From: Haloarchaeobius iranensis
GTDB taxonomy: Archaea > Halobacteriota > Halobacteria > Halobacteriales > Natrialbaceae
NCBI RefSeq assembly: GCF_900103505.1
Contig: NZ_FNIA01000005.1
Location: 62,001-126,000, forward strand
Direction of reading: 5' to 3'
DNA length: 64,000 bases
Part shown: piece after piece, positions 14,332-35,655 of the stretch
How positions within the stretch are numbered: the first letter of the stretch is position 1
Layout of the letters: every line of letters begins with the position of its first letter
Position numbers and translations under genes: made by a program
The notes under the pieces: generated by a model
What the model was told of the DNA's origin: nothing
Database searches by the model: none
The model's input: only the letters and a program-made list of their open reading frames with translations

Positions 14332-14391
14332 GACACAAGTGGACGCGCCCCACGGCAAAAACGTTCGCCCCGTGGCGGCCACCACTCACAC

Positions 14392-15615: not shown

Positions 15616-15694
15616 GGTCGCGGCTTCGCCCCGGCTCGTGTTAACGGTTGTCACGGCAGTGCTCGTCGGTCGAGCGATGCTCGAACGCGCAAAC

Positions 15695-16159: not shown

Positions 16160-16226
16160 CAGGTACCACGAGTCACGACGTCCACTTAACCACACCGACG
16201 CGACGAACGAGGTCACCACACAGCTG

Positions 16227-16307
16227 ATGTGCGGCGAGACCGGCACGATACACTACAACTCGGTGTCCGACGAGTACACGTGCAACGTCGACGTCGTGTC
16301 CGAGTGA
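16227..16307 (+). CDS. Possible 26-aa micro-ORF or gene remnant
   Basis: A short + strand frame starting MCGETGTIHYNSVSDEY and ending DVVSE. A TATA-like CTTAACC lies 30-36 nt upstream, and the same A+T patch also serves the divergent PH-like gene. Composition is protein-like (acidic, two Cys) rather than random, but without homologues it cannot be told from the C-terminal remnant of a lost gene. The rest of the 199-nt gap 16160-16358 shows nothing else. Confidence 0.25.
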   Translation: MCGETGTIHYNSVSDEYTCNVDVVSE

Positions 16308-18036: not shown

Positions 18037-18254
18037 ACCGCTTCAATCAGAAACATCGTAATTAAAACTGTCGTCGTTTCGGACGGCAAATTGGCCGTTG
18101 AAGCCGGGAAACGGGCTGTATGACACGTTCGGCCCCCGTTCTGGACAGCACAGAACCCCAACCAGTTACCCCACGGGCCCAGACACGTAGAAACTGAAAC
18201 TGGTCGCCCCCGTGTGCCGCGAGCCTCGTCGCGCGGGACCGACGGCGGGGTAAG

Positions 18255-18260
18255 CTATTT
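18255..18260 (+). promoter_or_regulatory. TATA-like box for CocE/NonD hydrolase
   Basis: CTATTT centred 28 nt upstream of the ATG at 18286 fits a leaderless transcript and supports that start over an in-frame ATG at 18214. Confidence 0.45.
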
Positions 18261-18285
18261 GCGGGCCGTGGCGGTGTGTGGGAGC

Positions 18286-20586: not shown

Positions 20587-21168
20587 GTGCCCTCGACCTA
20601 CCAGCGGCTCCTGCGGCTGCTCGGGAAGGAGGACGTCCGCTCCATCGCCCGCCGGTACTTCATCTCGAACGGCTTCGACGGGACGCTCACCAGCATCGGG
20701 GTCGTCGTCGGCGCGGTGCTGACCGGGGTGCCCGATGGCATCACGGTCGTGAAGATCGGCCTCGGCGCGGCGGTCGGGCTCACCACGTCGGCCGTCTGGA
20801 GCGTCTGGGAGATCGAACGCGCCGAGACGAGCGCGGAGAGACGCCGCATCGAGCGCGCGATGCTCACCGACCTCGACGACACGCGCATCCAGCGCGAGCA
20901 GCGCGGCGCGCGACTGTTCCACGCCGTCGCGAGCGGGCTCGGGCCGCTGATCGGCGTGCTCGTCCCCCTCTCGCCGTTCCTGTTCGAGGGGACGGTGTTC
21001 AGCATGGCCGAGGCCGCCGTCGTCGGCGTCGCCCTTGGCGTCGGCGTGCTCTCGACGTTCGGCGCGTACATGGGCTCCATCTCGGGGCACCGGTGGTACG
21101 TCTCGGCGGCGCGGATGGGGGTCGCGGGGCTCGTCGTCGCCGCCATCAACCTGCTGCTTCCGGGGTAA
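20587..21168 (+). CDS. VIT1/CCC1-like membrane protein
   Basis: 193-aa membrane protein with about five hydrophobic segments. The first, YFISNGFDGTLTSIGVVVGA, matches the D-G-x-x-x-x-x-G-[LV]-V-V-G signature of the VIT1/CCC1 iron/manganese transporter family, and a charged linker (EIERAETSAERRRIERAM) corresponds to the cytoplasmic metal-binding region. The GTG at 20587, 2 nt after the DUF211 stop codon, is the best start because it begins just before the conserved helix; the upstream ATG lies inside DUF211. Its 3' end overlaps the convergent P-ATPase gene by 23 nt. Confidence 0.83.
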   Translation: MPSTYQRLLRLLGKEDVRSIARRYFISNGFDGTLTSIGVVVGAVLTGVPDGITVVKIGLGAAVGLTTSAVWSVWEIERAETSAERRRIERAMLTDLDDTRIQREQRGARLFHAVASGLGPLIGVLVPLSPFLFEGTVFSMAEAAVVGVALGVGVLSTFGAYMGSISGHRWYVSAARMGVAGLVVAAINLLLPG

Positions 21169-23845
21169 GTCCGCCGCCCTCGCCGTCGTTGTCATCGTCG
21201 TCCTCCTGGTGGCCGGTGTGCCGCCGCACCAGCGAGCCGACGGCGAGCAGCGGGCCGAGGCCGACGAGCAGCGCCGCGCCGATGACGCCCCAGTCGGCCA
21301 GCCCGAGGGCGACGGTGCCGAAGTACGCCGAGAGGGGCGTGTACAGCACCGAGAGGTGGAGCAGGAGCGACGCGCCGACGGCGAGCGCGAGCCACCGGTT
21401 CGAGACGAGCGGCGTCCCCCGCGACCAGCGCACGACGTACAGTTTCAGGAACTCGAAGACGACGAAGCCGGTGAACACCATCGTCATGGCGTACGGCGTC
21501 ACGCTGGCCGCGCCGTCGAGCACGTAGACGAGCAGGCCGAGCATCACGACGGTCACGGTGAGTCCCGCACCGCCGATGAACGTGAGCATCTCGCGGTCGA
21601 TGATACCGGCGGTCCGGCTGCGCGGCTCGCGGTCCATCACGTCGCCGGCGGGGTCGGTGCCGAGTGCGAGTGCCGGCAGGCCGTCGGTGAGCAGGTTGAT
21701 CCAGAGCAGCTGGACCGCCGGGAGGACGAGGTAGCCGAAGAGCGACGCGATGAACACGAGCGCGACCTCGGCGGCGTTCGCGCTCAGCAGGTACGCGACG
21801 AACTTCCAGATGTTGTCGAAGATCTTCCGCCCGCGGCTGATGGCGGTGCGGATGGTCGCGTAGTTGTCGTCGAGCAGGACGATGTCGCTGGCCTGCTTGG
21901 CCACGTCGGTGCCGCGGATACCCATCGCGATGCCCACGTCGGCGTTCTTCAGCGCCGGCGCGTCGTTGACACCGTCGCCGGTCATCGCGACGTCGTAGCC
22001 CACCGCCTGTAGCGCCTGGAGGATGCGCACCTTGTGGACGGGTTCGGCGCGGGCGAACACGTCCACTGCCTCGACCCGGGCCTGGAGCTCCTCGTCGGAG
22101 AGCGCGGCGACCTCGCTCCCGGTCATGACGTCCGATTCGATGCCGACCTCGCGGGCGATGGCGCCCGCCGTGACCGCGTTGTCGCCGGTTATCATCTTCA
22201 CGCCGATGCCGGCGCGGTGGGTGTCGGCGATGGCGTCCCGCACCTCCCTGCGAGGCGGGTCAAGCAATCCCTGGAGCCCGACGAGGACGAGGTTCTCCTC
22301 GGTATCGCCGTCGTCGCTCCGGTCCTTGTACGCGAACGCGAGCACCCGGAGTGCGTCGTCGGCGAACGTCTCGACCTGCTCGCTGACGCGGTCCCTGGTC
22401 GCCTGGTCCAGCTCGACGGGGCCGTCAGCGGTGAGGATTCTCGTCGACCGTTCGAGGACCACGCCCGGCGCGCCCTTGACGTACACCACGTCGTCGTGAA
22501 CGGTCGCCATGCGCTTGCGCTCTGCCGAGAACGATATCTCGTCGACGCGCTCGCGCGCCTCCCGGAGCGCCGCCACGTCGATGCCGTGGTCCGCGGCGGC
22601 CGTGACGAGTGCGCGTTCGGTCGGGTCGCCGTCGTCGGCCGTCGCGTCGTTGCAGACTGCGCCGATCTCCAGCAGGAGGCCCACGCGGTCGCCCGTCTCA
22701 GCGGCTGCGACCGGGTCGGCGGTGTCTGGCACCTCGCCGCCGTCGCTGGCTGGCTCGGCGGCGGAACCCGTGTCCGCGGTGCCGTCGTCCGACCCGTCAG
22801 CGAGGTCGACCGTCTCGTCGGCCACCCAGCCGGCCTGGACGCGCATCTCGCCCTCGGTGAGGGTGCCGGTCTTGTCGGTACAGACCACGTCGACCGACCC
22901 GAGCGCCTCGACCGCCGGCAGCGTGCGGACGAGCGCGTTCTCGTCGGCCATCTTGCGCACCCCGAGCGCGAGCGTCAGCGTGACGATGGCAGGCAGTCCC
23001 TCGGGGATGGCCGCGACGGCGAGCGAGACGCCCGTCAGTCCGGCCTGCACCCACGACGTGCCGCCGTAGACGAGCACCGGGATGACGATGCCGGCGAGCG
23101 CGATGACCGCGAAACCGAGCCGCCGACCGAGCGCGTCGAGGCTACGCTGGAGCGGCGTCTGTGTCTCCGCGGCGGTGAGCAGCTCGGTCGCGATGGCACC
23201 GACCTCGGTCTCCATCCCGGTCTCGACGACGACCGCGACGGCGCGCCCCCGGGTTACGCTCGTGCCCCGGTAGACGGTGTTCGAGCGCTCCGCGAGGGGT
23301 GTCTCCGCGGGCAGGGTGCCGGGGGACTTCTCGACGGGGACGCTCTCGCCGGTGAGCGCGGCCTCGTCGACCTCGATGGAGTGCGTCTCGACGAGGCGCG
23401 CGTCGGCCGGCACCACGTCGCCCTCACTGAGGACCAGCACGTCGCCCGGCACGAGTTCGGACGCGGGGACGGTCCGCTCCGCCCCGCCCCGCCGGACCAC
23501 GACCTCCGGCGCGGACAGCTCCCGCAGCGCATCGAGACTCTGCTCCGCGCGGTACTCCTGGACGAAGCCGAAGATACCGTTCGCGAGCAGGATGATGGCG
23601 ATGAGGACGGCGTCGACGGCGTGGCCGACGAGGAGCGAGAGCGCGGCGGCGGCGAGCAGCACCCAGATGAGTGCGCTGGTGAACTGCGAGAGGAACACCC
23701 GCAGCGGCCCGCGGGCCGCCTCGGTGTGTATCTCGTTCGGCCCGTGCTCCGCCAACCGCTGTGCCGCTTCCCCGGGGTCGACCCCGTCGGGCGACGAGTC
23801 GAGCTCCTCGAACACCGCCTCGACGTCCTCGGTGTGCCACGCCAT
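21146..23845 (-). CDS. P-type ATPase, P2A (SERCA/PMR1) Ca2+-transporting type
   Basis: 899-aa ion pump. In order: N-terminal cation-ATPase domain, TGES in the actuator domain (165-168), PEGLP in M4 with the ligand Glu (E282), the phosphorylation site DKTGTLTEG (D324), a nucleotide-binding domain containing an inserted acidic Asp/Thr-rich stretch, the hinge [17 protein letters not shown], and C-terminal helices. Ca2+-site residues of SERCA are conserved: the Asn and Glu of SANAAEVA in M5 and N, T, D of [10 protein letters not shown] in M6. This argues for Ca2+ (or Mn2+) export over Na+/K+ transport. The gene overlaps the convergent VIT-like gene by 23 nt. Confidence 0.92.
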
Positions 23846-24062: not shown

Positions 24063-24827
24063 TCAGGCCTCGGTGAAGGCGACGCACCGGGAGACCGAGG
24101 ACTCGCCGCCGCGGAAGCGCCACGGGAACGTCCCGATCTGGCAGCGCTCGTTCAGCAGCTCCGCGGGGACCTGCGCGTTCTCGACGTGGACGATGCCCTC
24201 GGGGAACAGCTCGGTGTGCATCAGCTGGTAGCCCTCCGGCGGGAATATCTCGTCGAGGTCGTCGACGCCGTGCTTCTCGCGGGCCTCGCGGGCGAGTTCG
24301 GGGCGCACGTCGCGGATGACCGTGTTCATCGGGTGGTCCGCGCTCCCGCAGTCGAGCATGAGGTAGTTGAGGTCCATCTCCTTGCACCACTCCGCGAACT
24401 CCATGTTCGGGCCGGGGTGCTTGCAGAAGAAGGCGTGCGGGTCGGCCGCCTCGCGGTGCCAGGCGTACTCCTGGTAGCCGGTGTGGATGAACAGGATGTC
24501 GCCCTCGCGCACGTCGCAGACGTCCTCTATCATCTCGCTGGTGTAGATGTCGTAGTCCCCGACCTCGTCGGAGATGTCGGCGACGACGGCGTCGCCCACG
24601 AGTTCGTCGAGCGACATCGACTCGATGTCACGCCCGTGGGCGATGAAGTGCTTCTCGCCGTCGAGGTGTGTCCCCGTGTGGTTCATGAACTCGATCTTCT
24701 GGCCGTTGACCTTCTCCGTGTCCAGGCTCTTCTCGTACCAGATCTTCGGGTTATCGTAGGTGGGCCAGGCCGGCGTGTCCTGCGACCACGGCTGCGTCAG
24801 GTCGTGCATCTCGTAGCCGTCGAGCAT
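24063..24827 (-). CDS. Cyclase-family metal-dependent hydrolase (PF04199, kynurenine formamidase-like)
   Basis: 254-aa hydrolase. The metal-binding signature HTGTHLDGEKHF is at residues 50-61 (H-x-G-T-H-x-D), and further conserved positions are in GDILFIHTGYQEY and LDCGSADHPMNT. Relatives hydrolyse N-formylkynurenine, isatin or cyclic amides. The ATG at 24827 (MLDGYEMHDLTQPW) begins directly at the family start (D-L-[ST]). It is divergent from the molybdenum-hydroxylase FAD-subunit gene across a 153-nt shared promoter region, suggesting that it acts on a related substrate. No export signal is seen. Confidence 0.88.
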   Translation of the reverse strand: MLDGYEMHDLTQPWSQDTPAWPTYDNPKIWYEKSLDTEKVNGQKIEFMNHTGTHLDGEKHFIAHGRDIESMSLDELVGDAVVADISDEVGDYDIYTSEMIEDVCDVREGDILFIHTGYQEYAWHREAADPHAFFCKHPGPNMEFAEWCKEMDLNYLMLDCGSADHPMNTVIRDVRPELAREAREKHGVDDLDEIFPPEGYQLMHTELFPEGIVHVENAQVPAELLNERCQIGTFPWRFRGGESSVSRCVAFTEA

Positions 24828-24882
24828 GACAGTGAACCACACGGCGGGAGGTAATGAAAGTTCGCCGCTGCACCGACAAGCG

Positions 24883-24910
24883 GTGTGCTCACACACGCCA
24901 AGATTTAATA
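24883..24910. promoter_or_regulatory. Divergent promoter region with GTGTG/CACAC palindrome and TATA box
   Basis: GGTGTG (24883-24888) and the CACAC run (24891-24897) form a short inverted repeat directly upstream of TTTAATA (24904-24910), a TATA-like box on the + strand for the FAD-subunit gene. The start of that gene is ~70 nt further on, implying a leader of about 45 nt. The palindrome is also upstream of the divergent cyclase gene, so one factor could act on both. Confidence 0.4.
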
Positions 24911-24980
24911 CGGCGTCCTGCCGTGGTATTGGGTATCGTTCGTCGAACACCGCCCGAGTCGGTCAGTCCCAACAGCCACA

Positions 24981-25886
24981 ATGAAGCCAGCCCAGTTCCA
25001 GTACCACCGTCCCACCTCGCCCGCTGAAGCAGTCGAACTCGCGGCCGAGCTGGAGGAGGCAGAGTTCATGGCAGGTAACCAGTCGCTCGGCATCGTGATG
25101 TCGAACCGGCTGGCGACGCCCGCGAACATCGTCGACCTGAGCCGCATCGACGAGCTCGACTTCGTCGCGGTCGAGGACGACGCGGTCCGCGTCGGCGCGC
25201 TGACGACACACCGCAGCATCTCGCAGTCGACGCGACTCGCCGAGCACGTCCCGATGCTGCCCGAGGCGGCCGCACAGATCGCCGGCCCGAGCGTCCGCAA
25301 CCGCGGCACCATCGGCGGGAGCCTCGGGGAGGCGGACCCGGCCGGCAACTACCCGGCCGCCCTGGTCGCGCTCGACGGCGACATCACGCTCCGTGGCCCC
25401 GACGGCACACGCACGGTCGACGCCCGTGAATTCTTCATCGCCTACATGTTCACCGACATGGCCGAGGCGGAGCTCATCGAGTCGGTCTCGGTGCCACGCG
25501 GGCCGTTCCCGCCAGAACGGACCGGGATGGCGTTCGACGAGCTGAAACGTGCTGCACAGACCTGGCCGACCATCTCGGCGGGGGCGTCGGTCCGCGTCGA
25601 CGACCCCGACGCGGACGCGCCCGTCGTCGAGGACGCGCGCCTCGCGCTGGCGAACGCCGCGGACGTCCCGCTGCACGTCCCCGACGCCGAGGCCGCCGTC
25701 GAGGGCGAGCCGCTCTCGGACGCGACGCTCGACGAGGCCGGGGACGCCGCCCGCGAGGCCGCCGAGCCGTCCGAGGAGATGCACGCCGACCGCGAGTTCA
25801 AGCTCGACGTGGCGGGGGAGTACGGCCGTCGGGCGCTCGAGACGGCGTACGACCGGGCCTGCGGCACGGGAGGTGAGCCAGCGTGA
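24981..25886 (+). CDS. Molybdenum hydroxylase FAD-binding subunit (CoxM/XdhB-like)
   Basis: 301-aa medium subunit of a xanthine dehydrogenase/CO dehydrogenase-family enzyme; it passes electrons from the iron-sulfur subunit to the acceptor through FAD. The FAD-binding segments are visible: AGNQSLGIVMSNRLATP (the AGG-Q-S-L loop variant) and RNRGTIGGSLGEADPAGN (the T-I-G-G loop). The C-terminal CO_deh_flav_C domain ends the protein. Its stop codon overlaps the start of the CoxG-like gene (GTGA). The partner large and small subunits are encoded at 28797-31805 on the other strand, an unusual separation. Confidence 0.93.
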   Translation: MKPAQFQYHRPTSPAEAVELAAELEEAEFMAGNQSLGIVMSNRLATPANIVDLSRIDELDFVAVEDDAVRVGALTTHRSISQSTRLAEHVPMLPEAAAQIAGPSVRNRGTIGGSLGEADPAGNYPAALVALDGDITLRGPDGTRTVDAREFFIAYMFTDMAEAELIESVSVPRGPFPPERTGMAFDELKRAAQTWPTISAGASVRVDDPDADAPVVEDARLALANAADVPLHVPDAEAAVEGEPLSDATLDEAGDAAREAAEPSEEMHADREFKLDVAGEYGRRALETAYDRACGTGGEPA

Positions 25887-26398
25887 TCGAGTTCGAGGGC
25901 GAGTTCGAGCTCGACATGCCGCCCGAGGAGCTGTGGCCGTACTTCACAGACCCCGACGTCATCGCCGACTGTGCGCCCGGCATGAAGGAACTGAAGCAGA
26001 ACTCGCCGTCCGACCTCGAGGCCGTGATGTCGGTGAAGGTCGGCAGCGTCAGCCCCACGTTCGACGTGGAGGTGACCGTGGTCGAGGCGACGAAACCCTC
26101 GACGCTCCGGATGAGCGCGGTCGGCAACGCCAGCCGGAACGCCTTCGAGACGGCCGCACACATGGACCTCCAGCCGACTGAGGCGGGTGGCACCCTCGCG
26201 ACGTGGACGGCCAGCGCCGAGGTGTCGGGGCTCATCGCGAGCCTCGGCCAGCGCGCGCTCGGCGGCGTCACGACCCGACTCGTCAACAACTTCTTCGACG
26301 ACCTCCAGGCGACCGCGGAGGAGGGCGAGCCGGCGGAATCGCGGCTGGAGGGGGCCGAGGGCGCCGAGCCGGTGGTCGAGGTCGACGCCGGGGAGTAG
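25883..26398 (+). CDS. CoxG-like SRPBCC-domain protein
   Basis: 171-aa START/SRPBCC-fold protein (CO dehydrogenase subunit G family), starting IEFEGEFELDMPPEELWPYF and containing DPDVIADCAPGMKEL. Such proteins accompany aerobic Mo hydroxylases and have roles in membrane attachment or substrate/quinone delivery. The GTG start at 25883 overlaps the previous stop codon and is preceded by a clear Shine-Dalgarno sequence (GGAGGTGA, 25869-25876), one of few in the window, supporting coupled translation. The C-terminal ~25 residues are an acidic tail. Transcription may end in the following 228 nt. Confidence 0.87.
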   Translation: MIEFEGEFELDMPPEELWPYFTDPDVIADCAPGMKELKQNSPSDLEAVMSVKVGSVSPTFDVEVTVVEATKPSTLRMSAVGNASRNAFETAAHMDLQPTEAGGTLATWTASAEVSGLIASLGQRALGGVTTRLVNNFFDDLQATAEEGEPAESRLEGAEGAEPVVEVDAGE

Positions 26399-26472
26399 AC
26401 CGCAACCGTCCCGACGGCTCCAGGCCGGTGACTTTTCGACCCTGTGGCTCGGTCTCACGGTCGACGAAGCCG

Positions 26473-26745
26473 ATGTCCGTCGACCTCCGCTACGCCGTCA
26501 TCGACATCGGCTGCGGTTCCGGGGTGAACGTGGTGCCGCTCTGCGAACCAGTCGGCCGCGTGGGCGCCGTCCCCGGCGTCGAATCCAGCCGGCGGGTGCT
26601 CGCCGCCGAGGCCAACCGGGAGCGCCTCAGGACAGCGAGAGCGAGTGCTCCCCTTCCGAGTCGACCCGGAGGAGACACGTCAGTTCCCGCTGCGTGGGCA
26701 ACTCCACGGAGCCGTCACCGTCGTCCCGCCCGTACTCGACCGTGA
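26473..26745 (+). pseudogene. Fragment of a class I SAM-dependent methyltransferase
   Basis: From the ATG at 26473 the frame reads RYAVIDIGCGSGVNVVPLCE and continues GAVPGVESSRRVLAAEANRE, i.e. methyltransferase motif I (D-x-G-C-G-S-G) and the motif II region. Then homology stops as the frame runs into the convergent lipoprotein gene. A complete enzyme would need well over 150 more residues, so this is most likely a truncated remnant. A recently evolved short protein is less likely. Confidence 0.42.
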
Positions 26746-27295
26746 CGTCGGTCCGGTACTCCCCGGGCGTGGGACAGCCGTCGGTCGGGCCGCGGTAGTA
26801 CACCTCGTGTCGGACCGTGTGCGACGCACCGGCGGGGACCGCTGTCGGAACCGATGTCGAGATCCGGCTCCGGTAGGCCGTGCCGTCGTCGGCGTCGATG
26901 ATCCGCCAGCAGCCGTCCCGTCTCGTCGGCTCGCCGCGACGGAGCTGGACGCGACTCGTCGAGGTCGGCAGCAGCAGGAACTCGCCGGGGTCGCCGGCGA
27001 GCGGTTCGAGGTACTCGAACGGGGCGGCACCGTGGCTGCCGGGTCGGGTGACGACGTCCGTGGAGCCGGCGTTCTCGATCCGGAACGCGGCGCTGGCCGG
27101 TGCGTCGGGCGAGGCCTGTTCGACGATGTCGGCGTGGAACCGGAGCGGGCCGTAGTCCGGGGCACCGGTCGTCCCGGTGGCGCGGGGGTCGTCGGTCGTG
27201 TCGGGCGCGTCGTTCGACGCGACGCTGCAGCCCGCGATGGCCCCGGTCACGACGACGGACGCCGACTTGAGGAGCCGCCGTCTGCGGAGGGACAT
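26627..27295 (-). CDS. Predicted lipoprotein, unknown function
   Basis: 222-aa protein with an Arg-rich start (MSLRRRRLLK), a hydrophobic segment and a lipobox TGAIAGC, so exported and lipid-anchored at the outer face, possibly by Tat. The mature part begins with a Thr/Asp-rich linker followed by a beta-rich domain (HADIVEQASPDAPASAAFRI) that looks immunoglobulin-like. Start at 27295. No known partner: it sits between the CoxG-like gene and an FAD oxidoreductase, inside the divided Mo-hydroxylase locus, and need not be related to it. Confidence 0.75.
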   Translation of the reverse strand: MSLRRRRLLKSASVVVTGAIAGCSVASNDAPDTTDDPRATGTTGAPDYGPLRFHADIVEQASPDAPASAAFRIENAGSTDVVTRPGSHGAAPFEYLEPLAGDPGEFLLLPTSTSRVQLRRGEPTRRDGCWRIIDADDGTAYRSRISTSVPTAVPAGASHTVRHEVYYRGPTDGCPTPGEYRTDVTVEYGRDDGDGSVELPTQRELTCLLRVDSEGEHSLSLS

Positions 27296-27394
27296 ACGAT
27301 AGCGTGCGACGGTTCCGGCAAGTGCTTTGTCCCGGTTGCGCCCCCGTCTCCGACACAAGCCCCCCAACTGGCCGGACGCTGCGGTTCCGTAACA

Positions 27395-27402
27395 CTATAT
27401 CC
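27395..27402 (+). promoter_or_regulatory. TATA box for FAD-dependent oxidoreductase
   Basis: CTATATCC is centred 29 nt upstream of the ATG at 27427, a strong leaderless-type promoter that fixes the start well inside a longer open frame. Confidence 0.6.
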
Positions 27403-27426
27403 GGTGGCGGCCCTCACCTCGACCGG

Positions 27427-28779
27427 ATGACGCTGGCGAACGTGCCGCGCTACGAGGAGTCGACAGTGGCCCGACAGGGCGACCACGCCGTCGTCGTCGG
27501 CGCGAGCATGGCCGGGCTGGTCGCCGCGCGGACCGTCGCCGACGCGTTCGACCGGGTGACGGTGCTCGACCGCGACGCGCTCGCGGACGACCCGGTTCCG
27601 CGCCGCGGGGTTCCCCAGGGCCACCAGCCCCACGTGCTGCTCGAGGCCGGGCGGGCGACGCTGGCGGACCTATTTCCGTCCTTCGCCGAGGAACTGCTCT
27701 CGAACGGCGGGCTGGTGCTCGACTGGACGCACGACCTGGTCCACTACGAGGACGGCGGCTACCTCGAACCGGGACCGCGCCGCCGGCCGATGTACGCGGC
27801 GAGCCGGCCGCTGTTCGAGGCGGTCACGCGGCGGTGTCTGGCGGCGGTCGACGGTGTCCGGCTCCGTCCCGAATGCCGGTTCGTGGACTACCAGCTCGCC
27901 GACGCCGGGACGGCCGTCGACGGCGTGGTCGTCGAGTCGGGTCGCTCGGACGGCACCAGCACGCTCCCGGCGGACCTCGTCGTCGACGCGACGGGGCGCA
28001 CGTCGCGGACGCCGGCGTGGCTGGCCGAGCACGGCTACGAGCGCCCGCCCGAGGAGGAGGTGACGGTGGACGTCCGGTACTCGACGGCGGTCGTCGACCG
28101 ACCGTCCGCGGACCGGCGAGCCTTCTTCGTCCCGCCGACGGCACCCCGGACCAGGGGCGGCGGCGCGTTCCCCGTCGAGGGCGACCGCTGGCTCGTCACG
28201 CTCCAGGGCGTCCACGGCGACGACCCCCCGACGGAGCCCGAGGGACTGCACGGGTTCGCCGACAGCCTGCCCGTCGACCACCTCGCGCGGCTGCTCGACG
28301 AGCGCGAGTGGGTCGGCGACGGTGTCGAGAGCTACCCGTTCCCGTCGAACGTGAGGCGCTACTACGAGCAGTTGGACCGGTTCCCGGACGGGCTGGTCGT
28401 CCTCGGCGACGCCGTCGCGAGCTTCAACCCCGTCTACGGCCAGGGGATGTCGGTGGCGTCGCTCGAAGCCCTGGTGCTGCACCACACGCTCGCCGACGGT
28501 GGCCTCGACGGGCTGGGGGTGCGCTTCTTCGACCGCGCGAGCGAGGTCGTCGACGTGGCGTGGTCGATGGCGGTCGGCTCGGACCTCGGCTACGCGGCGA
28601 CGGCGGGCTCGCAGTCAGTGGTCGAAGCGGCGTTCACGCGCTACCTCGCCCGGCTGGTCCGGACCGCACAGGACGACGCCACCGTCGCCGACGCCTACGG
28701 CCGGGTCGTGACGATGGAGGAGCCGCCGACCTCGCTGCTCAGCCCGGCTCTCGTCGCTCGGGTACTGTCGCCGCGATAA
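27427..28779 (+). CDS. FAD-dependent monooxygenase/oxidoreductase
   Basis: 450-aa flavoprotein. The N-terminal dinucleotide-binding motif is HAVVVGASMAGLVAARTVAD (G-x-S-x-x-G, a variant of GxGxxG). A mid-protein DLVVDATGRTSRTPAWL and a C-terminal GLVVLGDAVASFNPVYGQGM (the GD motif binding the FAD ribityl chain) place it in the group of squalene-epoxidase/geranylgeranyl-reductase-like oxygenases. Start at 27427, defined by the TATA box. It lies inside the Mo-hydroxylase region but on the opposite strand to the large subunit. A role in the same pathway is possible but not shown. Confidence 0.85.
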   Translation: MTLANVPRYEESTVARQGDHAVVVGASMAGLVAARTVADAFDRVTVLDRDALADDPVPRRGVPQGHQPHVLLEAGRATLADLFPSFAEELLSNGGLVLDWTHDLVHYEDGGYLEPGPRRRPMYAASRPLFEAVTRRCLAAVDGVRLRPECRFVDYQLADAGTAVDGVVVESGRSDGTSTLPADLVVDATGRTSRTPAWLAEHGYERPPEEEVTVDVRYSTAVVDRPSADRRAFFVPPTAPRTRGGGAFPVEGDRWLVTLQGVHGDDPPTEPEGLHGFADSLPVDHLARLLDEREWVGDGVESYPFPSNVRRYYEQLDRFPDGLVVLGDAVASFNPVYGQGMSVASLEALVLHHTLADGGLDGLGVRFFDRASEVVDVAWSMAVGSDLGYAATAGSQSVVEAAFTRYLARLVRTAQDDATVADAYGRVVTMEEPPTSLLSPALVARVLSPR

Positions 28780-28796
28780 GCGCGTTCCGACCGGTC

Positions 28797-31247
28797 CTAC
28801 TCCTCGGCCTCGCGGAGCCGCTTGCGCGCCCGGTGCGCGGTGAACGGCAGGCGGTCGGCGGTCACGCCCAGCGGTTCGAGTGCGTCGTTGATGGAGCAGG
28901 CGATGGCCGCGGGGGCGTCTATCATCCCGCCCTCGCCGACGCCCTTCGCGCCCGTCTCGGTGAACGGCGACGGGTGGACGGTGTGTTCCATCTCGATGTC
29001 GGGCATGTTCTTCGTCGACGGGAGCAGGTAGTCGAACATGGTGATGGCCTGGGGCTGGCCGGAGTCCTGGTCGTAGCCGAACTCCTCCATGAGCGCCGCG
29101 CCGAGGCCCTGTGCGATGCCGCCGTGGGCCTGCCCCTCGACGATCATCGGGTTGAGCATCGTCCCGCAGTCCCGCAGGGTGTAGAACTTCAGCACTTCGA
29201 CCTCGCCCGTCTCCACGTCCACCTCGACGATCGGTGCGTTGACCGCGTACGCCGCGGTCGGGTACACCGGGTACTTGCTCGTGAGCGCGTCGTCGAACTC
29301 CGGGAAGTCGGTCGCGGGGTGCTCGTAGTCGTAGCTGACGCGGGTCCGCCCCTCGTCGTCCAGCGCCGCGAGGTCGGCGAGCGAGAGCGCGTCGTCGATA
29401 CCGCCAAGCTCGACGCGGCCGTCGCGGTAGTCGACCGCCTCGCGCTCGACGCCCCAGTGGTCGGCGGCGAGCGCGGCGAGGTTCTCGCGCAACCGCTCGC
29501 CGACGCCGACGCTCGCTCCGGAGAGCATCACGGCCATGCGCGAGGCCGCGCTGCCGTACTCGGTCGGGGCCTCGACGCTGTCGAGGTAGTCCACCTCGAT
29601 GTCGCTCGGGAGCAGGCCGAGCTCGTCGGCGAGCAGCTGGGCGACGAGCGTCTGGTGGCCCTGCCCGGAGCTGTCGGTGGCGAGCCAGGCCAGCACCGTT
29701 CCGTCGGGCTTCACCTCCGCCCGGAGGTGTTCGGGCAGTTCGGCGACGTCCTCGCGGGTTCGGTTCGCGAGCGTCTCGTCGTCGGTGCGCTGGCGGTCGG
29801 TCCAGTCCGAGCCCGAGACGCCCGGCTCGATGAGGACCGCGGTCTGGGTGCCACGGTAGAACCCCTCCTCGCGGCGCTCTTCGACGACCTCGGGGTCGAG
29901 CAGGCCGCCCTCGCAGCGCTCGTTCTCGTCGAGTATCTCGCCCATCCGGTCCATCGCGCCGGGGTAGTCCCCGGAGTCGTAGATGTTGCCCGAGGGAATG
30001 CGGTACGGCAGCTGGTCGGGCGTGACGAGGTTGCGCCGGCGGAACTCCGTCGGGTCGATACCGAGCTCGCGTGCGGCGTCGTCGACCAGCATCTCCAGCG
30101 CGTACTGGTGCGGGTCGACGCCGAAGCCGCGGTAGGCGGTCTGGGCCGTCTTGTTCGTCAGCACGAGGTCGTACTCGTAGGCCACGTCGTCGATGGCGTA
30201 GGCGTTCGTCAGCACCGACAGGGGCTTGAGCACCTGGTTGACGGGGTAGTGCGGCCACGCGCCGAAGTCGTCGACGAACCAGACGTCGAGCCCGCGCATG
30301 GTGCCGTCGTCGTCGCAGGCCAGGCGCATCTCGTAGGTGCGCTCCGAGCAGTGCATGTCGCCGCCCTGCAGGTTCTCGATGCGGTCCTCGACGAACTTGA
30401 CCGGCCGGCCGAGCTGTTCCGCGGCCATCGACGCGAGGTTGCAGTACCGGTGGATGGCGATCTTCGTCCCGAAGCTCCCGCCCACGTCGGCGGGGACGTT
30501 CAGCTCGACCCGGTCGGCCGGCCGGCCGAGCGTCTCGTAGACGGTGTCGTCGACGAGCGTGTGCAGCTGGATGTTGCAGTCGATGTGGAAACTGTCGCCG
30601 TCCTCGTCGTACTGGGCGACGACGCCGGCCGTCTCGAGGGGGACACCGGAGACGCGCCCCCACTCGTACGTGCCCTCGACGACGCGGTCGGCGTCCGCGA
30701 ACGCACCGTCGGGGTCGCCGAACGTGAGACGCACGTTGTCGGCGACGTTCGACCCGGCGTCCTCGTGGACGAGGGTGTCGGCCTCGCGTGCCGCCATCCC
30801 GTCGACGACGGGGTCGAGCGTCTCGTACGTCACGTCGACCAGGTCGGCCATGTCCTCGGCGAGGTAGCGGTCCGCGGCGACGACGACGGCGATTGGTTCG
30901 CCGACGAAGCGGGCCTTCCCGTCCGCGAGCGACCACTCCTCGTACCCCTCCAGCCCGCAGGGCTGTGGGTTGTACGACTCCTTCAGGTCATCGATGGTGA
31001 GCACGAGCTCGCAGTCGGGGTGGTCCTCGGCCGCACTCGTGTCCACGTCGACGACCTCCGCGTGGGCGTGGACGCTCCGGACGATGGCCATCTCGAGGCA
31101 GTTCGGCGGCGTCACGTCGTGGATGTACTCCGCCTCGCCGGTGAGGATGCGCCGGTCCTCGAACCGGCGGACGCTCTGGCCGGTGAACGACCGGCCCTCG
31201 AGCTCGCCCCCGGCCTCCTGGCCGGCCTGCGGTTCGGACTCGGACAT
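28797..31247 (-). CDS. Molybdenum hydroxylase large (Mo-cofactor) subunit, XDH/CoxL family
   Basis: 816-aa catalytic subunit that hydroxylates its substrate at the molybdopterin site. Visible: the a/b hammerhead start GQSVRRFEDRRILTGEAEYI, a Moco region GGSFGTKIAIHRY, the active-site loop TAYRGFGVDPHQ (371-376 AYRGFG), and GVGEGGMIDAPA with the catalytic Glu (about E772). The loop lacks the CSFR of true CO dehydrogenase and the AYRGAGR of form II CoxL, so CO is an unlikely substrate. It starts directly after the stop codon of the small-subunit gene (no gap). Confidence 0.93.
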   Translation of the reverse strand: MSESEPQAGQEAGGELEGRSFTGQSVRRFEDRRILTGEAEYIHDVTPPNCLEMAIVRSVHAHAEVVDVDTSAAEDHPDCELVLTIDDLKESYNPQPCGLEGYEEWSLADGKARFVGEPIAVVVAADRYLAEDMADLVDVTYETLDPVVDGMAAREADTLVHEDAGSNVADNVRLTFGDPDGAFADADRVVEGTYEWGRVSGVPLETAGVVAQYDEDGDSFHIDCNIQLHTLVDDTVYETLGRPADRVELNVPADVGGSFGTKIAIHRYCNLASMAAEQLGRPVKFVEDRIENLQGGDMHCSERTYEMRLACDDDGTMRGLDVWFVDDFGAWPHYPVNQVLKPLSVLTNAYAIDDVAYEYDLVLTNKTAQTAYRGFGVDPHQYALEMLVDDAARELGIDPTEFRRRNLVTPDQLPYRIPSGNIYDSGDYPGAMDRMGEILDENERCEGGLLDPEVVEERREEGFYRGTQTAVLIEPGVSGSDWTDRQRTDDETLANRTREDVAELPEHLRAEVKPDGTVLAWLATDSSGQGHQTLVAQLLADELGLLPSDIEVDYLDSVEAPTEYGSAASRMAVMLSGASVGVGERLRENLAALAADHWGVEREAVDYRDGRVELGGIDDALSLADLAALDDEGRTRVSYDYEHPATDFPEFDDALTSKYPVYPTAAYAVNAPIVEVDVETGEVEVLKFYTLRDCGTMLNPMIVEGQAHGGIAQGLGAALMEEFGYDQDSGQPQAITMFDYLLPSTKNMPDIEMEHTVHPSPFTETGAKGVGEGGMIDAPAAIACSINDALEPLGVTADRLPFTAHRARKRLREAEE

Positions 31248-31805
31248 CTACGCCCCCTCCTCGCCGTCGTCCCGGGCCGGCTCGAGGTCCGCGGCGAGCT
31301 TGTCGGCGGCGCGGTCGACCGCGCGGTAGATGTTCTGGTAGCCGGTGCAACGGCAGATGTTGTCCGCGAGCCCCTCCTCGATCGCCTCGCGGTCGGGGTC
31401 CGGGTTCTCCTCGAGGAGGGACTTCGTCGCCATGACGAAGCCGCTCGTACAGAAGCCACACTGGAGCGCGTGCTCCTCGTGGAACGCCTCCTGGACGGAG
31501 TGGAGTCTGCCGTCCTCGGCCAGTCCCTCGACGGTCTCGACCGCCAGGTCCTCGGCCTGGACCGCGTACAGCAGGCAGCTCTTGACCGTCTCTCCGTCGA
31601 GCGAGACGGTGCAGGCGCCGCAGACCCCGTGCTCGCAGCCGACACGGACCCCGTGAAGGTCGCACTCGTTCCTGAGGAAGTCGGAGAGCTTCAGGCGTGG
31701 CTCGACCTCCCGGGTCACCGCCTCGCCGTTGACGGTGACCGAGATCTCGCGAGTCGGACGCTCCCCCGAGTGAGGTGTGTCCTCGATACCCATGGTAGAT
31801 ACCAT
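31248..31805 (-). CDS. Molybdenum hydroxylase [2Fe-2S] small subunit (CoxS/XdhC-type small chain)
   Basis: 185-aa iron-sulfur subunit carrying electrons from the Mo site to FAD. The N-terminal plant-type ferredoxin cluster is bound by C57, C62, C65 and C77 (GCEHGVCGACTVSLDG). The second, helical-domain cluster is bound by C116, C119, C151 and C153 (QCGFCTSGF, NICRCTGYQ). All eight cysteines are present. The ATG at 31805 suits the TATA-like box 20-27 nt upstream; an in-frame ATG at 31793 is an alternative. It is directly followed by the large subunit. Confidence 0.94.
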   Translation of the reverse strand: MVSTMGIEDTPHSGERPTREISVTVNGEAVTREVEPRLKLSDFLRNECDLHGVRVGCEHGVCGACTVSLDGETVKSCLLYAVQAEDLAVETVEGLAEDGRLHSVQEAFHEEHALQCGFCTSGFVMATKSLLEENPDPDREAIEEGLADNICRCTGYQNIYRAVDRAADKLAADLEPARDDGEEGA

Positions 31806-31824
31806 CGTACTTTCGGCGATTCGA

Positions 31825-31832
31825 CCTTAAGC
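31825..31832 (-). promoter_or_regulatory. TATA-like box for Mo-hydroxylase small/large subunit operon
   Basis: GCTTAAGG on the minus strand ends 20 nt and begins 27 nt upstream of the ATG at 31805. This is the expected place for leaderless transcription of the two-gene operon. Confidence 0.45.
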
Positions 31833-32093
31833 CTTGCCGTGGTTCGCGGTGAAAACATCCCGTTCCGGGCCACCAGCGGCCGTCCCGGCCGTCCGGCGCT
31901 CGCCGGTCAGCCGCCGCCGTACACCGTCGTCTCGGGGTGGAACCGGACCTCGCCGGCCACGGTGCCGGAGCGCAGGGGCGGCAGCAGGACGTCGCTGTCG
32001 GGGTGGGCTCCGCGCCGGGCGTCCCAGGTGGCGCCCGCGTCCGGTGGTCGGCGCGTCGCGAGGACACCCGGGTCGCTGCCCTCGCTGGGATAG

Positions 32094-32100
32094 CTCTAAG
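32094..32100 (+). promoter_or_regulatory. TATA-like box for amidohydrolase gene
   Basis: CTCTAAG lies 26-32 nt upstream of the ATG at 32126, consistent with a leaderless transcript. The ~290 nt between this gene and the divergent small-subunit gene contain no supported gene. Confidence 0.45.
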
Positions 32101-32125
32101 TCCCCCGATACTGTCTCTTGGTACC

Positions 32126-33550
32126 ATGGCACGAGCAGACCTCTGCATCCACGACGCTCGCGTCGTCACGCCGTCGGGCACCATCCACGGCGGCGTGGCG
32201 TCGACCGACGGCACCATCACCGCGGTCGGCGGCGACGGCTCGCTGCCCGACGCGGACCGGACCATCGACGCCGGGGGGAACTACCTCGTCCCCGGCTTCA
32301 TCGACCCGCACGTCCACTGGGGGCTGTCGCGCTACGAGTTCGAGTACCACGAGGGGCTCGAGCACGACTTCGAGACGGAGACGCGGGGCGCGGTCCACGG
32401 CGGCGTGACGACGGTCGTGAACTTCCTGCTCCAGCCCGAACCGTACCTGCCGGACATGGAGTTCTTCCGACGGGCCGGCGAGGAGAACTCCTACATCGAC
32501 TTCGCCTACCACGCCATCATCCACAAGGACCACCACTTCGAAGAGGTAGACGGGCTCGCAGAGGAAGGCGTCCGGTCGTTCAAGATTTTCTTCAACTGGT
32601 ACAAGCACGCCGCGCCGGAGCTGGGCATCGAGCACTCCCACGCGGGCCGGGTGTACGACCTGCTGTCGCAGGTCGCCGACATCCCGGGCGGCGTCGTGAT
32701 GTTCCACGCCGAGAACGAGGACATCGCCTACGAGCGCCGCCAGGAGCTGCAGGAGGAGGGCCGCAACGACCTCGGGGCGTGGTCGGAGTCCGCCCCGAAC
32801 ATCTGTGAGTTCATGCAGATCGAGCAGATCGGCCACATGACCGAGCTGACCGATTCCCGGGCGTACATCGTCCACATGTCTACGGGGGAGGGCGTCGACA
32901 TCTGCAAGTGCTTCCAGGAGCGGGGCGTGAACCTCCACGCGGAGACGCTGCCGGCCTTCCTCACCCACACGAAGGACGAGGAGGAGCTGGGCGTCTGGGG
33001 GAAGATCTCGCCGCCGCTCCGTGGCGAGTGGAGCAAGGACCGCCTCTGGCAGGGGCTCCGGGAGGGCACTGTCGACTACCTCGGCACGGACCACTGCCCG
33101 CACAAGATAGAGTTCAAGGAGAAGGACACGGGCAAGCACGGCGACATCTGGGACGCCATCCCCGGCGACAACAACGGCATCGAGTACTTCCTGCCGGTGC
33201 TGCTGAGCGAGGGCGTCAACAGGAACCGCATCAGCATGGAGCGCCTCGTGGAGATCTGTGCCGAGAACAACGCCAAGCGCTGGGGCCTCTACCCCCGGAA
33301 GGGCGCGCTCGTCGAGGGGAGCGACGCCGACATGGTGGTCGTCGACATGGAGAAGTCGAAGGTCGTCGACGACGACTTCTACCACACGATGGAACCCCGC
33401 TACTCGACGATGCACGGGATGGAGCTGACCGGCCTGCCGACCCACACCGTCGTCGGCGGCGAGGTCGTCGTCGAGCACGACGAGCTGCAGGTCGAGCCCG
33501 GCGGCCGGCACTACCTCCACCGCGGCGACAGCGGCGTCGAACTGGAGTAG
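32126..33550 (+). CDS. Dihydropyrimidinase/hydantoinase/allantoinase-type amidohydrolase
   Basis: 474-aa cyclic-amidohydrolase with a binuclear metal site. Metal ligands: the H-x-H of GFIDPHVHWG (H62, H64), a bridging carbamylated Lys in SFKIFFNWYK (K153), His in MFHAENED and IVHMSTGEG, and the catalytic Asp in GTDHCPHK. Length and motif order are those of D-hydantoinase, dihydropyrimidinase and allantoinase. Sequence alone does not separate these, though the order of a nucleobase permease, a Mo hydroxylase and this enzyme favours a purine or pyrimidine-derived ring. A MocA-like gene follows after 6 nt. Confidence 0.9.
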   Translation: MARADLCIHDARVVTPSGTIHGGVASTDGTITAVGGDGSLPDADRTIDAGGNYLVPGFIDPHVHWGLSRYEFEYHEGLEHDFETETRGAVHGGVTTVVNFLLQPEPYLPDMEFFRRAGEENSYIDFAYHAIIHKDHHFEEVDGLAEEGVRSFKIFFNWYKHAAPELGIEHSHAGRVYDLLSQVADIPGGVVMFHAENEDIAYERRQELQEEGRNDLGAWSESAPNICEFMQIEQIGHMTELTDSRAYIVHMSTGEGVDICKCFQERGVNLHAETLPAFLTHTKDEEELGVWGKISPPLRGEWSKDRLWQGLREGTVDYLGTDHCPHKIEFKEKDTGKHGDIWDAIPGDNNGIEYFLPVLLSEGVNRNRISMERLVEICAENNAKRWGLYPRKGALVEGSDADMVVVDMEKSKVVDDDFYHTMEPRYSTMHGMELTGLPTHTVVGGEVVVEHDELQVEPGGRHYLHRGDSGVELE

Positions 33551-33556
33551 GTCGGC

Positions 33557-34159
33557 GTGACCCTGCCCCGCTCCGTCGTCGGCGTCCTCCTCGCGGCCGG
33601 CACCGCCTCGCGCTTCGGCGACGGCCAGAAGCTCCTGGCCGAACTCGACGGCGAGCCGCTGGTCCACCACGCGGCCCGGACGCTCCTCGACGCGAACGTC
33701 GACGGCATCGTCGCGGTGCTCGGTGACCGGCGCGAGCGCGTCGCCGCGGCGCTCCCCGAGGGGGTCGAGACGGTCCACAACCCCGACTACGCGGAGGGCC
33801 AGGCGACGACGGTCGCTCGCGGTGTGCGAGCGGCCGCCGACCGCGGCGCTGACGCGGCCGTCATCGCGCTGGGGGACATGCCCTGCGTCGACGCCGGCAC
33901 CGTGGCTGCGCTCGTCGACGCCTTCCGGGGCACCGGGAGTGACATCGTCGTCCCGACGGCCGAGGGGCGGCGCGGGAACCCGGTACTGTTCGGCGCGGCG
34001 CACTTCGACACGCTGCAGAGCGTCTCGGGCGACCGTGGCGGCCGGGCGCTGTTCGACAGCTACCCGGTCGAGCGCGTGGCGGTCGCGGACCCCGGCATCC
34101 ACCTGGACGTCGACACCGAGGACGACATGCAGGCGCTGGCAGAACGGTGTCCGGAGTAG
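33557..34159 (+). CDS. MocA/MobA-like molybdopterin nucleotidyltransferase
   Basis: 200-aa NTP-transferase. The nucleotide-binding motif LLAAGTASRFGDGQKLL is at the start (G-x-x-R-F-G, then K), and IALGDMPCVD is the D-M-P metal-site motif. This matches MocA (CTP:molybdopterin cytidylyltransferase), which makes the MCD form of the cofactor used by XDH/CODH-family hydroxylases. The GTG at 33557 lies 6 nt after the amidohydrolase stop codon, so the two are co-transcribed. It presumably matures the hydroxylase encoded nearby together with XdhC. Confidence 0.87.
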   Translation: MTLPRSVVGVLLAAGTASRFGDGQKLLAELDGEPLVHHAARTLLDANVDGIVAVLGDRRERVAAALPEGVETVHNPDYAEGQATTVARGVRAAADRGADAAVIALGDMPCVDAGTVAALVDAFRGTGSDIVVPTAEGRRGNPVLFGAAHFDTLQSVSGDRGGRALFDSYPVERVAVADPGIHLDVDTEDDMQALAERCPE

Positions 34160-34164
34160 CTCCG

Positions 34165-34437
34165 CTACGGCACGACGACGGCCCGGTACCGAACCTCGCC
34201 GGCGTCCATCGCGCGGTAGGCGGCCTCGGCATCGGCGAGGGGGACCGTCTCGACGGCGGTCTCGGCCTCCTCGGGGATGGCGGCGAGCGCCCCGGCCCTG
34301 GCGGTGGCGTACTCGGCGTAGCCGCCGTCGCGGTGCAGCCCCATCACGGGCTTTGCCTCGCAGAGGACGAACTCGCCGGCCTCGGTCATCTGCACCGCAC
34401 GCATCGTCCCGTCGGGTGTGGGTAAATCGTTTGACAT
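34165..34437 (-). pseudogene. Zinc alcohol dehydrogenase remnant with two internal deletions
   Basis: The 90-codon frame is three separate ADH pieces joined in frame: an N-terminal strand (MRAVQMTEAGEFVL), a middle piece from the catalytic domain (LHRDGGYAEYATARAGAL), and the C-terminal end (VPLADAEAAYRAMDAGEVR with YRAVVVP). A complete enzyme has about 340 residues, so the zinc-ligand region and the whole Rossmann domain are gone. The frame stays open, so a short protein could still be made, but it cannot be an active dehydrogenase. Confidence 0.72.
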
Positions 34438-34506
34438 GGGTGCCACGTTACGGCCGCACCGACGTCGGTGGTTCCGGGCGTGGATTTACGTACCAGATCC
34501 GATAGT

Positions 34507-35655
34507 TCAGTCGTCGACGATGATCTCCCGCTCGCCGTGGATGGCGCCCTCGCGGTCGCGGAGCCGACCGCCCTCACGCCCGTTCAGCACGGCGAGCGCC
34601 TCGCTGACGATGCTGAGGGCGATCTGGACCGGCTCCCCGCCGCCGATGTCGAGGCCGACCGGCGTGGCGACGCGGGCGAGCTGCGCCTCGGTGAACTCGA
34701 CGCCGTCGGCGGCGAGCTCCTCGCGGATCTGTTCGAACCGTTCCCGGGGGCCCATCAGGCCGACGTAGGGTGCGTCGCTCTCCAGCACCGACGCGAGCGC
34801 GAGCTCGTCGTCGAGCTTGTTGTGGCTCATCAGCACGACCGCGGTCCGCTCGTCGGCGTGCTCGCCGAGGTTCGCGGGCCGCAGCGACAGCACCTCGTCG
34901 GCGGCCGGGAACCGCTCCGGGTCGGCGTGGCCGCCGCGGGCGGTCGCCACGGTCACCGCGAAGCCGACGTGCCGTGCGAGGTTCGAGACCGGCCCGGTGT
35001 CGGGCTGGCCGCCGAAGACGAGCATCTCCGGAGCCGGCTCGACGCCGTCGACGAACACCGTCACGTCGCCGGCCTCGGCCGAGACGGTCCGGGCGACCCA
35101 GGTGCCCGTCTCGGCGCAGTCGACCGCCTCGTCGCGGATCGCCTCGACGACGCCGTCGGGCAGCCCCGCCCGGTCCGACGGCGTGGCGACCGTTCCGTCC
35201 GTCTCGACGACGGCGCGGGCCCCGAGCGGTGCGTCGCCGTCCACGGCGGTCACCGTCGCGACCGAGTCACCCGTGTCGAGCGCCGCGAGCACCGCGTCCC
35301 ACGAGTCGTCGACCGGTTCGACGAGCACGTCGATGACGCCGTTGCAGCCGAGCCCGAGCCCCCACTCGTCGTCGTCGTCCATCAGGTCGAACGTCTCGAT
35401 GACGGGCTCGCCCGACGCGAAGACGGGGTTCGCGAGGTCGACGACCGGCCCCTCCAGACAGCCGGCGGTGATACCGCCGAGATGGTCGCCCTCGGGTGTC
35501 AGTACCATCTTCGCGCCCGGACGGCGGTACGCCGAGCCCTCGACGTCGACCACCGTCGCCACCGCGCCCGGCTCGCCCGACTCGCGGAGCGACGACAGCC
35601 GCCGCTTCACGTCGAGCGCGGTCGCGCTCCAGGGGTCCGCCGTAGATTGGTACAT
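34507..35655 (-). CDS. xdhC: XdhC/CoxI-family molybdenum hydroxylase maturation protein
   Basis: 382-aa protein that, in the family, binds Mo cofactor and promotes its sulfuration and insertion into XDH-type enzymes. N-terminal XdhC_CoxI domain: VEGSAYRRPGAKM, GGITAGCLEGPV (conserved Cys) and GLGLGCNGVIDV (second Cys). The C-terminal Rossmann-like domain runs from MLVFGGQPDTGP to ALVGLMG-type YVGLMGPRERF and LDIGGGEPVQIALSI. Start at 35655 with a TATA-like box 23-31 nt upstream. It lies at the edge of the Mo-hydroxylase locus on the minus strand. Confidence 0.92.
   Translation of the reverse strand: MYQSTADPWSATALDVKRRLSSLRESGEPGAVATVVDVEGSAYRRPGAKMVLTPEGDHLGGITAGCLEGPVVDLANPVFASGEPVIETFDLMDDDDEWGLGLGCNGVIDVLVEPVDDSWDAVLAALDTGDSVATVTAVDGDAPLGARAVVETDGTVATPSDRAGLPDGVVEAIRDEAVDCAETGTWVARTVSAEAGDVTVFVDGVEPAPEMLVFGGQPDTGPVSNLARHVGFAVTVATARGGHADPERFPAADEVLSLRPANLGEHADERTAVVLMSHNKLDDELALASVLESDAPYVGLMGPRERFEQIREELAADGVEFTEAQLARVATPVGLDIGGGEPVQIALSIVSEALAVLNGREGGRLRDREGAIHGEREIIVDD

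Follow-up and report, generated by a model that had tools for sequence, protein, structure and literature searches.

Gene content and layout of the locus

We analyzed a 64,000-nucleotide stretch of Haloarchaeobius iranensis DNA (contig NZ_FNIA01000005.1, positions 62,001 to 126,000 of the forward strand), referred to below as the window, which carries a molybdenum (Mo) hydroxylase locus with two different amidohydrolases. The genome is 3.77 Mb in size and 99.9% complete, and the genes of the window were checked by codon-position composition and by Pfam and NCBIfam scans. On the forward strand, the flavin adenine dinucleotide (FAD) subunit of the hydroxylase (24981-25886; PF00941 and PF03450), which is kept in the loci of relatives, is followed by a CoxG-like protein (25883-26398; PF06240, E=2e-24). 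On the reverse strand lie the large, Mo-binding subunit (28797-31247; PF01315, PF02738 and PF20256) and the [2Fe-2S] subunit (31248-31805; PF00111 and PF01799); the closest named relative of the former, from Haloarchaeobius sp. FL176, is 95% identical. To one side of these genes is a cyclase-family metal-dependent hydrolase, hereafter the cyclase (24063-24827, - strand; PF04199, E=2e-33), whose true start is likely at 24827, inside an open reading frame (ORF) that extends to 24950. To the other side is a hydantoinase/dihydropyrimidinase-like cyclic amidohydrolase, hereafter the hydantoinase (32126-33550, + strand; PF01979), which likely starts at ATG 32126 within an ORF that is open from 31937. 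Next to it are a MocA-type molybdenum cofactor cytidylyltransferase (33557-34159, + strand; PF12804; TIGR03310 at 137 bits, under the cut-off of 186) and an XdhC/CoxI maturation factor (34507-35655, - strand; PF02625 and PF13478). A reading made earlier from the letters of this DNA, which we call the original prediction, had listed these genes, and every gene that it named was found to be long and open, with Pfam scores far over cut-off.

The same prediction described the hydroxylase as divided. In a gene-order comparison of 50 stretches with an orthologous large subunit, the unit of FAD and CoxG genes is opposite in strand to, and convergent with, the unit of large and [2Fe-2S] subunits in 39 stretches from several families, and the gap between the two units is 58-385 bp in 33 of these 39 loci. 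The six wider gaps, of 2.1-3.7 kb, belong to four Haloarchaeobius loci and to L089 and L090. The FAD gene is on the strand of the large subunit in eight stretches, and three have none within 6 kb. In the window, 2.4 kb separates the end of the CoxG gene from the stop codon of the large subunit, and this space holds a lipoprotein (26627-27295, - strand; RR...AIAGC, with the lipobox AIAGC) and an FAD-dependent oxidoreductase (27304-28779, + strand; weak Pyr_redox_2 and FAD_binding_3 matches). Of the loci examined, only the four from Haloarchaeobius contain this pair (26627-28779), so the 2.4 kb spacing reflects a local insertion of two genus-specific genes. The two opposed units are real, but the distance between them is local and the opposed layout itself is conserved. 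The suspicion that relatives have a contiguous operon here was borne out in part, in that most relatives have two opposed and abutting units, while in about a fifth the FAD gene shares the strand of the large subunit or lies elsewhere. With the convergent layout common and the gap made up of two inserted genes, we do not count the split of the hydroxylase as remarkable.

Other arrangements were also observed. In one relative, a TnpB-like gene (RNA-guided nuclease family) sits between the cyclase and the FAD subunit (L074:12824-14233). A second hydroxylase belonging to the clade of the locus (58%), at G110:C2:243653-246055 (L075), has a single strand for its large, [2Fe-2S], CoxG and FAD genes, and its 20 kb stretch contains no cyclase or hydantoinase orthologue. 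The genome that carries the window has a second Mo-hydroxylase as well (G000:C45:27723-30050, L050); its large subunit is 37% identical to that of the locus, and its large, [2Fe-2S] and FAD genes are contiguous on one strand.

Distribution and membership of the module

We surveyed 391 Halobacteria genomes for orthologues of the core genes; those of the cyclase have at least 82% identity and those of the hydantoinase at least 73%, with the next group of the latter at or below 63%. The cyclase orthologue was present in 46 genomes, which are spread over several families of the order. These 46, which we call carriers, and no others have the hydantoinase orthologue. The large-subunit orthologue was found in the same 46 and in one more genome (G240, at 60%). 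A naive hypergeometric test returns a value of <1e-58, which is overstated owing to kinship and linkage. The better argument is that co-occurrence survives where linkage is broken: the genes are all present in G323, with 100 kb between large subunit and cyclase, as they are in G231, with the hydantoinase at a distance of about 130 kb, and in G243, with the genes on separate contigs. Within Haloarchaeobius, two of six genomes (G056 and G081) are without cyclase, hydantoinase and large subunit. Across families, identity is 82-93% for the cyclase, 73-83% for the hydantoinase, about 60-77% for the large subunit and about 50-65% for CoxG, which places the cyclase among the most conserved members, with the hydantoinase next. 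It is thus well supported that the locus is an instance of a conserved, patchily distributed and tightly co-inherited haloarchaeal gene unit, referred to here as the module. Bacterial relatives (a hydantoinase in Aminobacter at 42% and a cyclase in Rhodococcus ruber at 38%) lie in different contexts that give no clue to the substrate, and in open-access papers we found neither the module nor haloarchaeal oxidative pyrimidine catabolism described.

The clusters of relatives recurrently hold MocA, XdhC, MoeA, NCS2 permeases, a CocE/NonD hydrolase and a CaiB/BaiF coenzyme A (CoA)-transferase, as well as an IclR regulator, a UspA protein and a zinc alcohol dehydrogenase. As the original prediction said, a MoeA-type molybdopterin molybdotransferase (14392-15723, - strand; NCBIfam MoeA models, under cut-off; k17 in the clusters of relatives) and an NCS2 nucleobase permease (16359-17993, - strand; PF00860, E=3e-75; NCBIfam xanthine permease and NCS2 models, under cut-off) lie upstream. 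It overlooked three genes, all of which recur in the clusters of relatives. The first is a CaiB/BaiF family III CoA-transferase beside moeA (13126-14385, - strand), identified by NCBIfam and its orthologues. The second, a CocE/NonD (S15) serine hydrolase (18214-20211, + strand; TIGR00976 at 343 bits against a cut-off of 66), is present in 31 of the 50 cluster stretches. The third is a small conserved ORF adjoining the permease (15695-16246, - strand), which has no Pfam match and whose homologue stands beside the permease or hydantoinase in many carriers. The CocE hydrolase and the cyclase are separated by an inserted P-type cation ATPase (21146-23845), which among the loci examined was seen only in the window and in an FL176-like relative (L005/L056).

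For CaiB, CodA and urease, we compared the 46 carriers with 34 non-carrier genomes. A CaiB orthologue at 68% or more is present in all 46 carriers, with one of the matches partial. Its nearest NCBIfam models are succinate--glutarate, CoA:oxalate and succinyl-CoA:mesaconate CoA-transferases, none of them over cut-off, and the solved and curated proteins closest to it act on dicarboxylates (succinate--hydroxymethylglutarate, oxalate, mesaconate). On one contig (L109, G406:C3), the large subunit, cyclase and CaiB each occur twice, about 210 kb apart, which is either a duplication or an assembly artefact.

A CodA-type deaminase and a CodB-type permease lie inside the cluster in 13 of the 50 stretches. 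A representative CodB scores over the NCBIfam cytosine-permease equivalog cut-off, and a representative deaminase, CodA2, scores over the cytosine-deaminase subfamily cut-off of one NCBIfam model and aligns with E. coli cytosine deaminase along almost all of its length. Cytosine deaminase was found in 16 carriers (15 at 66% or more, one at 49%) and in none of the non-carriers (Fisher p = 4e-5, not corrected for kinship). The CodA proteins of relatives retain the catalytic residues, but in 32 of 33 sequences Ser takes the place of the Asp314 equivalent. Ser also occupies this position, which governs the acceptance of 5-methylcytosine, in the 5-methylcytosine deaminase of Klebsiella (K. pneumoniae) (PMC6186785). 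The comparison points to a cluster-linked deaminase of the cytosine/5-methylcytosine type. Elsewhere, the large subunit of a different Mo-hydroxylase (36%) has as its direct neighbor another cytosine-deaminase-like gene, in which position 314 is Asp (G007:C2:30896-34595, L129), an arrangement that suggests a second deaminase/Mo-hydroxylase pairing.

Families and active sites of the core enzymes

The three large-subunit domains, the two [2Fe-2S] domains and the FAD subunit place the enzyme in the Mo-hydroxylase family of xanthine dehydrogenase (XDH)/CO dehydrogenase type, with Pfam scores far over the gathering scores. Across 55 large-subunit sequences, the catalytic Glu (GxGE, GVGE) and the Gln (GQG) near Mo are invariant, as are the Phe of AYRGFG, Lys 341 and Ile 263. 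The best PDB match, over the full length, is quinoline 2-oxidoreductase (1t3q), with which the large subunit shares the catalytic Glu; unlike 1t3q, it has Phe for Val in the RGxG motif, the invariant Lys 341 and another gene context. Equivalog models of XDH give 236-296 bits, against cut-offs of 780-916. At the position that we take to be Glu802 in XDH numbering, all 55 sequences have Ile, which is a weak test, as the E. coli XdhA control has Gln there; this control also has Tyr for Phe914, making active-site comparison with XDH weak evidence in general. The active-site motifs of CoxL are AYRCSFR (form I) and AYRGAGR (form II) (PMC12996764), and the window has TAYRGFGV.

In 35 hydantoinase sequences, the metal ligands (HxH, Lys, His, His and Asp) are invariant, and they are shared with E. 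coli HyuA and AllB. The protein resembles the dihydropyrimidinases and its nearest PDB entry, L-hydantoinase 1gkr, in a full-length match and in all metal ligands including the Lys position. Unlike them, it has a different stretch after the Lys (FKIFFNWYKH) and falls under all curated cut-offs, among them TIGR02033 (279.5 vs 393 bits) and TIGR03178 (224 vs 358 bits). In Natronorubrum bangense (L078:8186-13452), a 55% paralogue of the hydantoinase has as neighbors a Zn-dependent hydrolase, a methylmalonate-semialdehyde dehydrogenase and a gene of the isochorismatase family; this locus may serve a reductive pyrimidine or a hydantoin route. The cyclase reaches 115.9 bits against PF04199 (cut-off 23.1), and its metal motif, HTGTHLDGEKH, follows the HxGTHxDxxxH pattern of the kynurenine formamidase/PF04199 family (1r61, 4co9), with H50, H54, D56 and H60 invariant. 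It differs from 1r61 and 4co9 by a Glu for Pro in the motif and by a match confined to the N-terminal part, and the kynurenine formamidase model TIGR03035 gives 36.5 bits against a cut-off of 223. A cyclase structure modelled with 14 closely related orthologues was of low confidence, with a mean pLDDT (predicted local distance difference test score) of 39.

Proposed substrate and pathway

A few bacteria degrade pyrimidine bases oxidatively, converting the base to barbiturate, then to ureidomalonate, and finally to malonate and urea (PMC3758960). The number and kind of enzymes in the module fit this route, and we hypothesize, as a call that stands about even, that the module serves oxidative pyrimidine-base catabolism by way of (methyl)barbiturate, with hydrolases outside the AtzD family. 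A pyrimidine is favored over a purine because 41 of the 46 carriers, including the window's genome, are without uricase and because the linked deaminase, which is accompanied by a CodB-type permease, appears to be of the cytosine/5-methylcytosine type. The original prediction had proposed an N-heterocycle pathway built on a Mo-hydroxylase and two different ring-opening hydrolases. A haloarchaeal module for N-heterocycle catabolism that combines a Mo-hydroxylase with two different amidohydrolases is well supported, both by co-occurrence and by the neighbors codA, codB, NCS2 and CaiB. Quinoline 2-oxidoreductase, the solved enzyme to which the large subunit comes closest, is an N-heterocycle hydroxylase. 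Within this class of compounds, pyrimidine bases are favored over purines, nicotinate and hydantoin.

We infer the substrate, the division of steps between the two hydrolases and the products from sequence. Bases would be imported by NCS2 permeases, in relatives also by CodB-like ones, and in some carriers a CodA-type deaminase would convert cytosine and 5-methylcytosine to uracil and thymine. Maturation of the three-subunit Mo-hydroxylase would fall to MocA, MoeA, XdhC and probably CoxG, and the mature enzyme would hydroxylate C6 of the ring, yielding (5-methyl)barbiturate and passing electrons out via [2Fe-2S] and FAD. The hydantoinase is predicted to open the ring to a ureido acid, and the cyclase to cleave this N-acylurea to (methyl)malonate and urea, possibly together with CocE/NonD or with that enzyme in its place; the roles of hydantoinase and cyclase could be reversed. 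Finally, the CaiB-type enzyme would make the CoA ester of (methyl)malonate for central metabolism. In a narrower version that we advance more tentatively, thymine, in some strains derived from 5-methylcytosine, would be converted by this hitherto unassigned Mo-hydroxylase clade to 5-methylbarbiturate and on to methylmalonyl-CoA, with a non-AtzD barbiturase of the hydantoinase or cyclase family. The predicted order of one oxidation and two amide hydrolyses, yielding a dicarboxylate and urea, is like that of uracil dehydrogenase, barbiturase and ureidomalonase in bacteria (PMC3758960). Unlike the bacterial route, the module is archaeal, adds a CaiB CoA-transferase and has a substrate that is deduced; its proposed ring opener would be a hydantoinase- or cyclase-family metalloenzyme in place of an AtzD-fold barbiturase.

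Several points weigh against oxidative pyrimidine catabolism. Known barbiturases have the AtzD fold and are neither hydantoinases nor cyclases. No core enzyme reaches an NCBIfam equivalog cut-off, so the core enzymes cannot be named from family membership alone. CaiB copies at 65-75% also occur in 10 of the 34 non-carriers; CaiB is linked to the module and not exclusive to carriers. Membership of the NCS1 or NCS2 family does not fix a permease's substrate, and the pbuX-type score of the NCS2 protein would suit xanthine no less than pyrimidines. Deaminase genes are found in only a third of carriers (codA is missing in 30 of 46), and the window's own genome has no codA match, so the pyrimidine link for its locus comes from relatives. 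Urease counts on both sides: it is commoner in carriers (24 of 46 vs 6 of 34 non-carriers), which favors the route, but is absent from the window's genome, where urea would need to be excreted or cleaved in another way.

The strongest rival is a conserved N-heterocycle module that acts on something other than a common pyrimidine base, such as a hydantoin, a modified base, creatinine, or a pyridine or pyrazine. The Mo-hydroxylase would activate this ring for opening by the hydrolases, with CodA and CodB only as upstream feeders in some strains. The core genes would suit any route that oxidizes and then hydrolyzes, the closest structures are an L-hydantoinase and a quinoline oxidoreductase, and the 30 carriers without codA, the window's genome among them, are readily accommodated. 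However, the nucleobase permeases and the carrier-restricted deaminase indicate bases, and a CoA-transferase of the dicarboxylate type is what would be expected for malonate or methylmalonate. We regard this rival as possible but unlikely.

A purine route is improbable. Here, the Mo-hydroxylase would be an XDH that forms urate and the hydantoinase an allantoinase, as in the puc cluster of Haloferax volcanii (HVO_B0299-B0310), which groups pucL, pucM, pucH, amaB, coxSLM and uraA4, includes an allantoinase-like gene, and resembles the module in bringing together a Mo-hydroxylase, a cyclic amidohydrolase and an NCS2 permease (PMC8305020). The enzyme is of the XDH family and the NCS2 permease has similarity to pbuX, but uricase, which the H. 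volcanii cluster has, is present in only 5 of the 46 carriers and not in the window's genome, and the module differs from the H. volcanii cluster in adding the cyclase, CocE, CaiB and, in relatives, codA and codB. Moreover, the hydantoinase scores under the allantoinase cut-offs, the carrier Halostagnicola larsenii has a separate AllB, and Ile replaces the XDH Glu802 equivalent. An identification as XDH was rejected on cut-offs, motifs and uricase absence.

Reductive pyrimidine catabolism, with the hydantoinase as a dihydropyrimidinase and the Mo-hydroxylase put to some other use, is marginally less probable still. The top NCBIfam scores of the amidohydrolase are indeed from dihydropyrimidinase models, and relatives have codA and permeases nearby. 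Those scores stay under cut-off, however, and the constant partner is a Mo-hydroxylase. Neither dihydropyrimidine dehydrogenase nor ureidopropionase was recognized among the recurring cluster genes, although no carrier-wide search for dihydropyrimidine dehydrogenase was made, and the paralogue locus of N. bangense would suit a reductive route better. Least probable is a CO dehydrogenase or aldehyde dehydrogenase with unrelated hydrolases as neighbors: the large, FAD and [2Fe-2S] subunits have CO dehydrogenase group 5 and glyceraldehyde dehydrogenase models as top NCBIfam matches and CoxG is present, but the scores are far under cut-off (460 vs 950 bits), the motif is AYRGFGV, co-occurrence with cyclase and hydantoinase is near-perfect, and CO dehydrogenase was rejected on cut-offs and motifs.

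About one in eight of the sampled Halobacteria genomes bears the module, and its proteins match no curated specific family, resembling CO dehydrogenase/XDH and hydantoinase models only under cut-off. The oxidative pyrimidine route has so far been known from a few bacteria only, and the module would most likely be its archaeal version. If oxidative pyrimidine catabolism is the correct reading, the module provides a gene-level candidate for this route in archaea, together with a candidate uracil/thymine hydroxylase, and would represent a second evolutionary solution for opening the barbiturate ring. Should the thymine route hold, the ring-opening enzymes of bacteria would have undergone non-homologous replacement. 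Oxidative pyrimidine catabolism by the module would also provide a likely fate for the 5-methylcytosine released by DNA turnover in brines.

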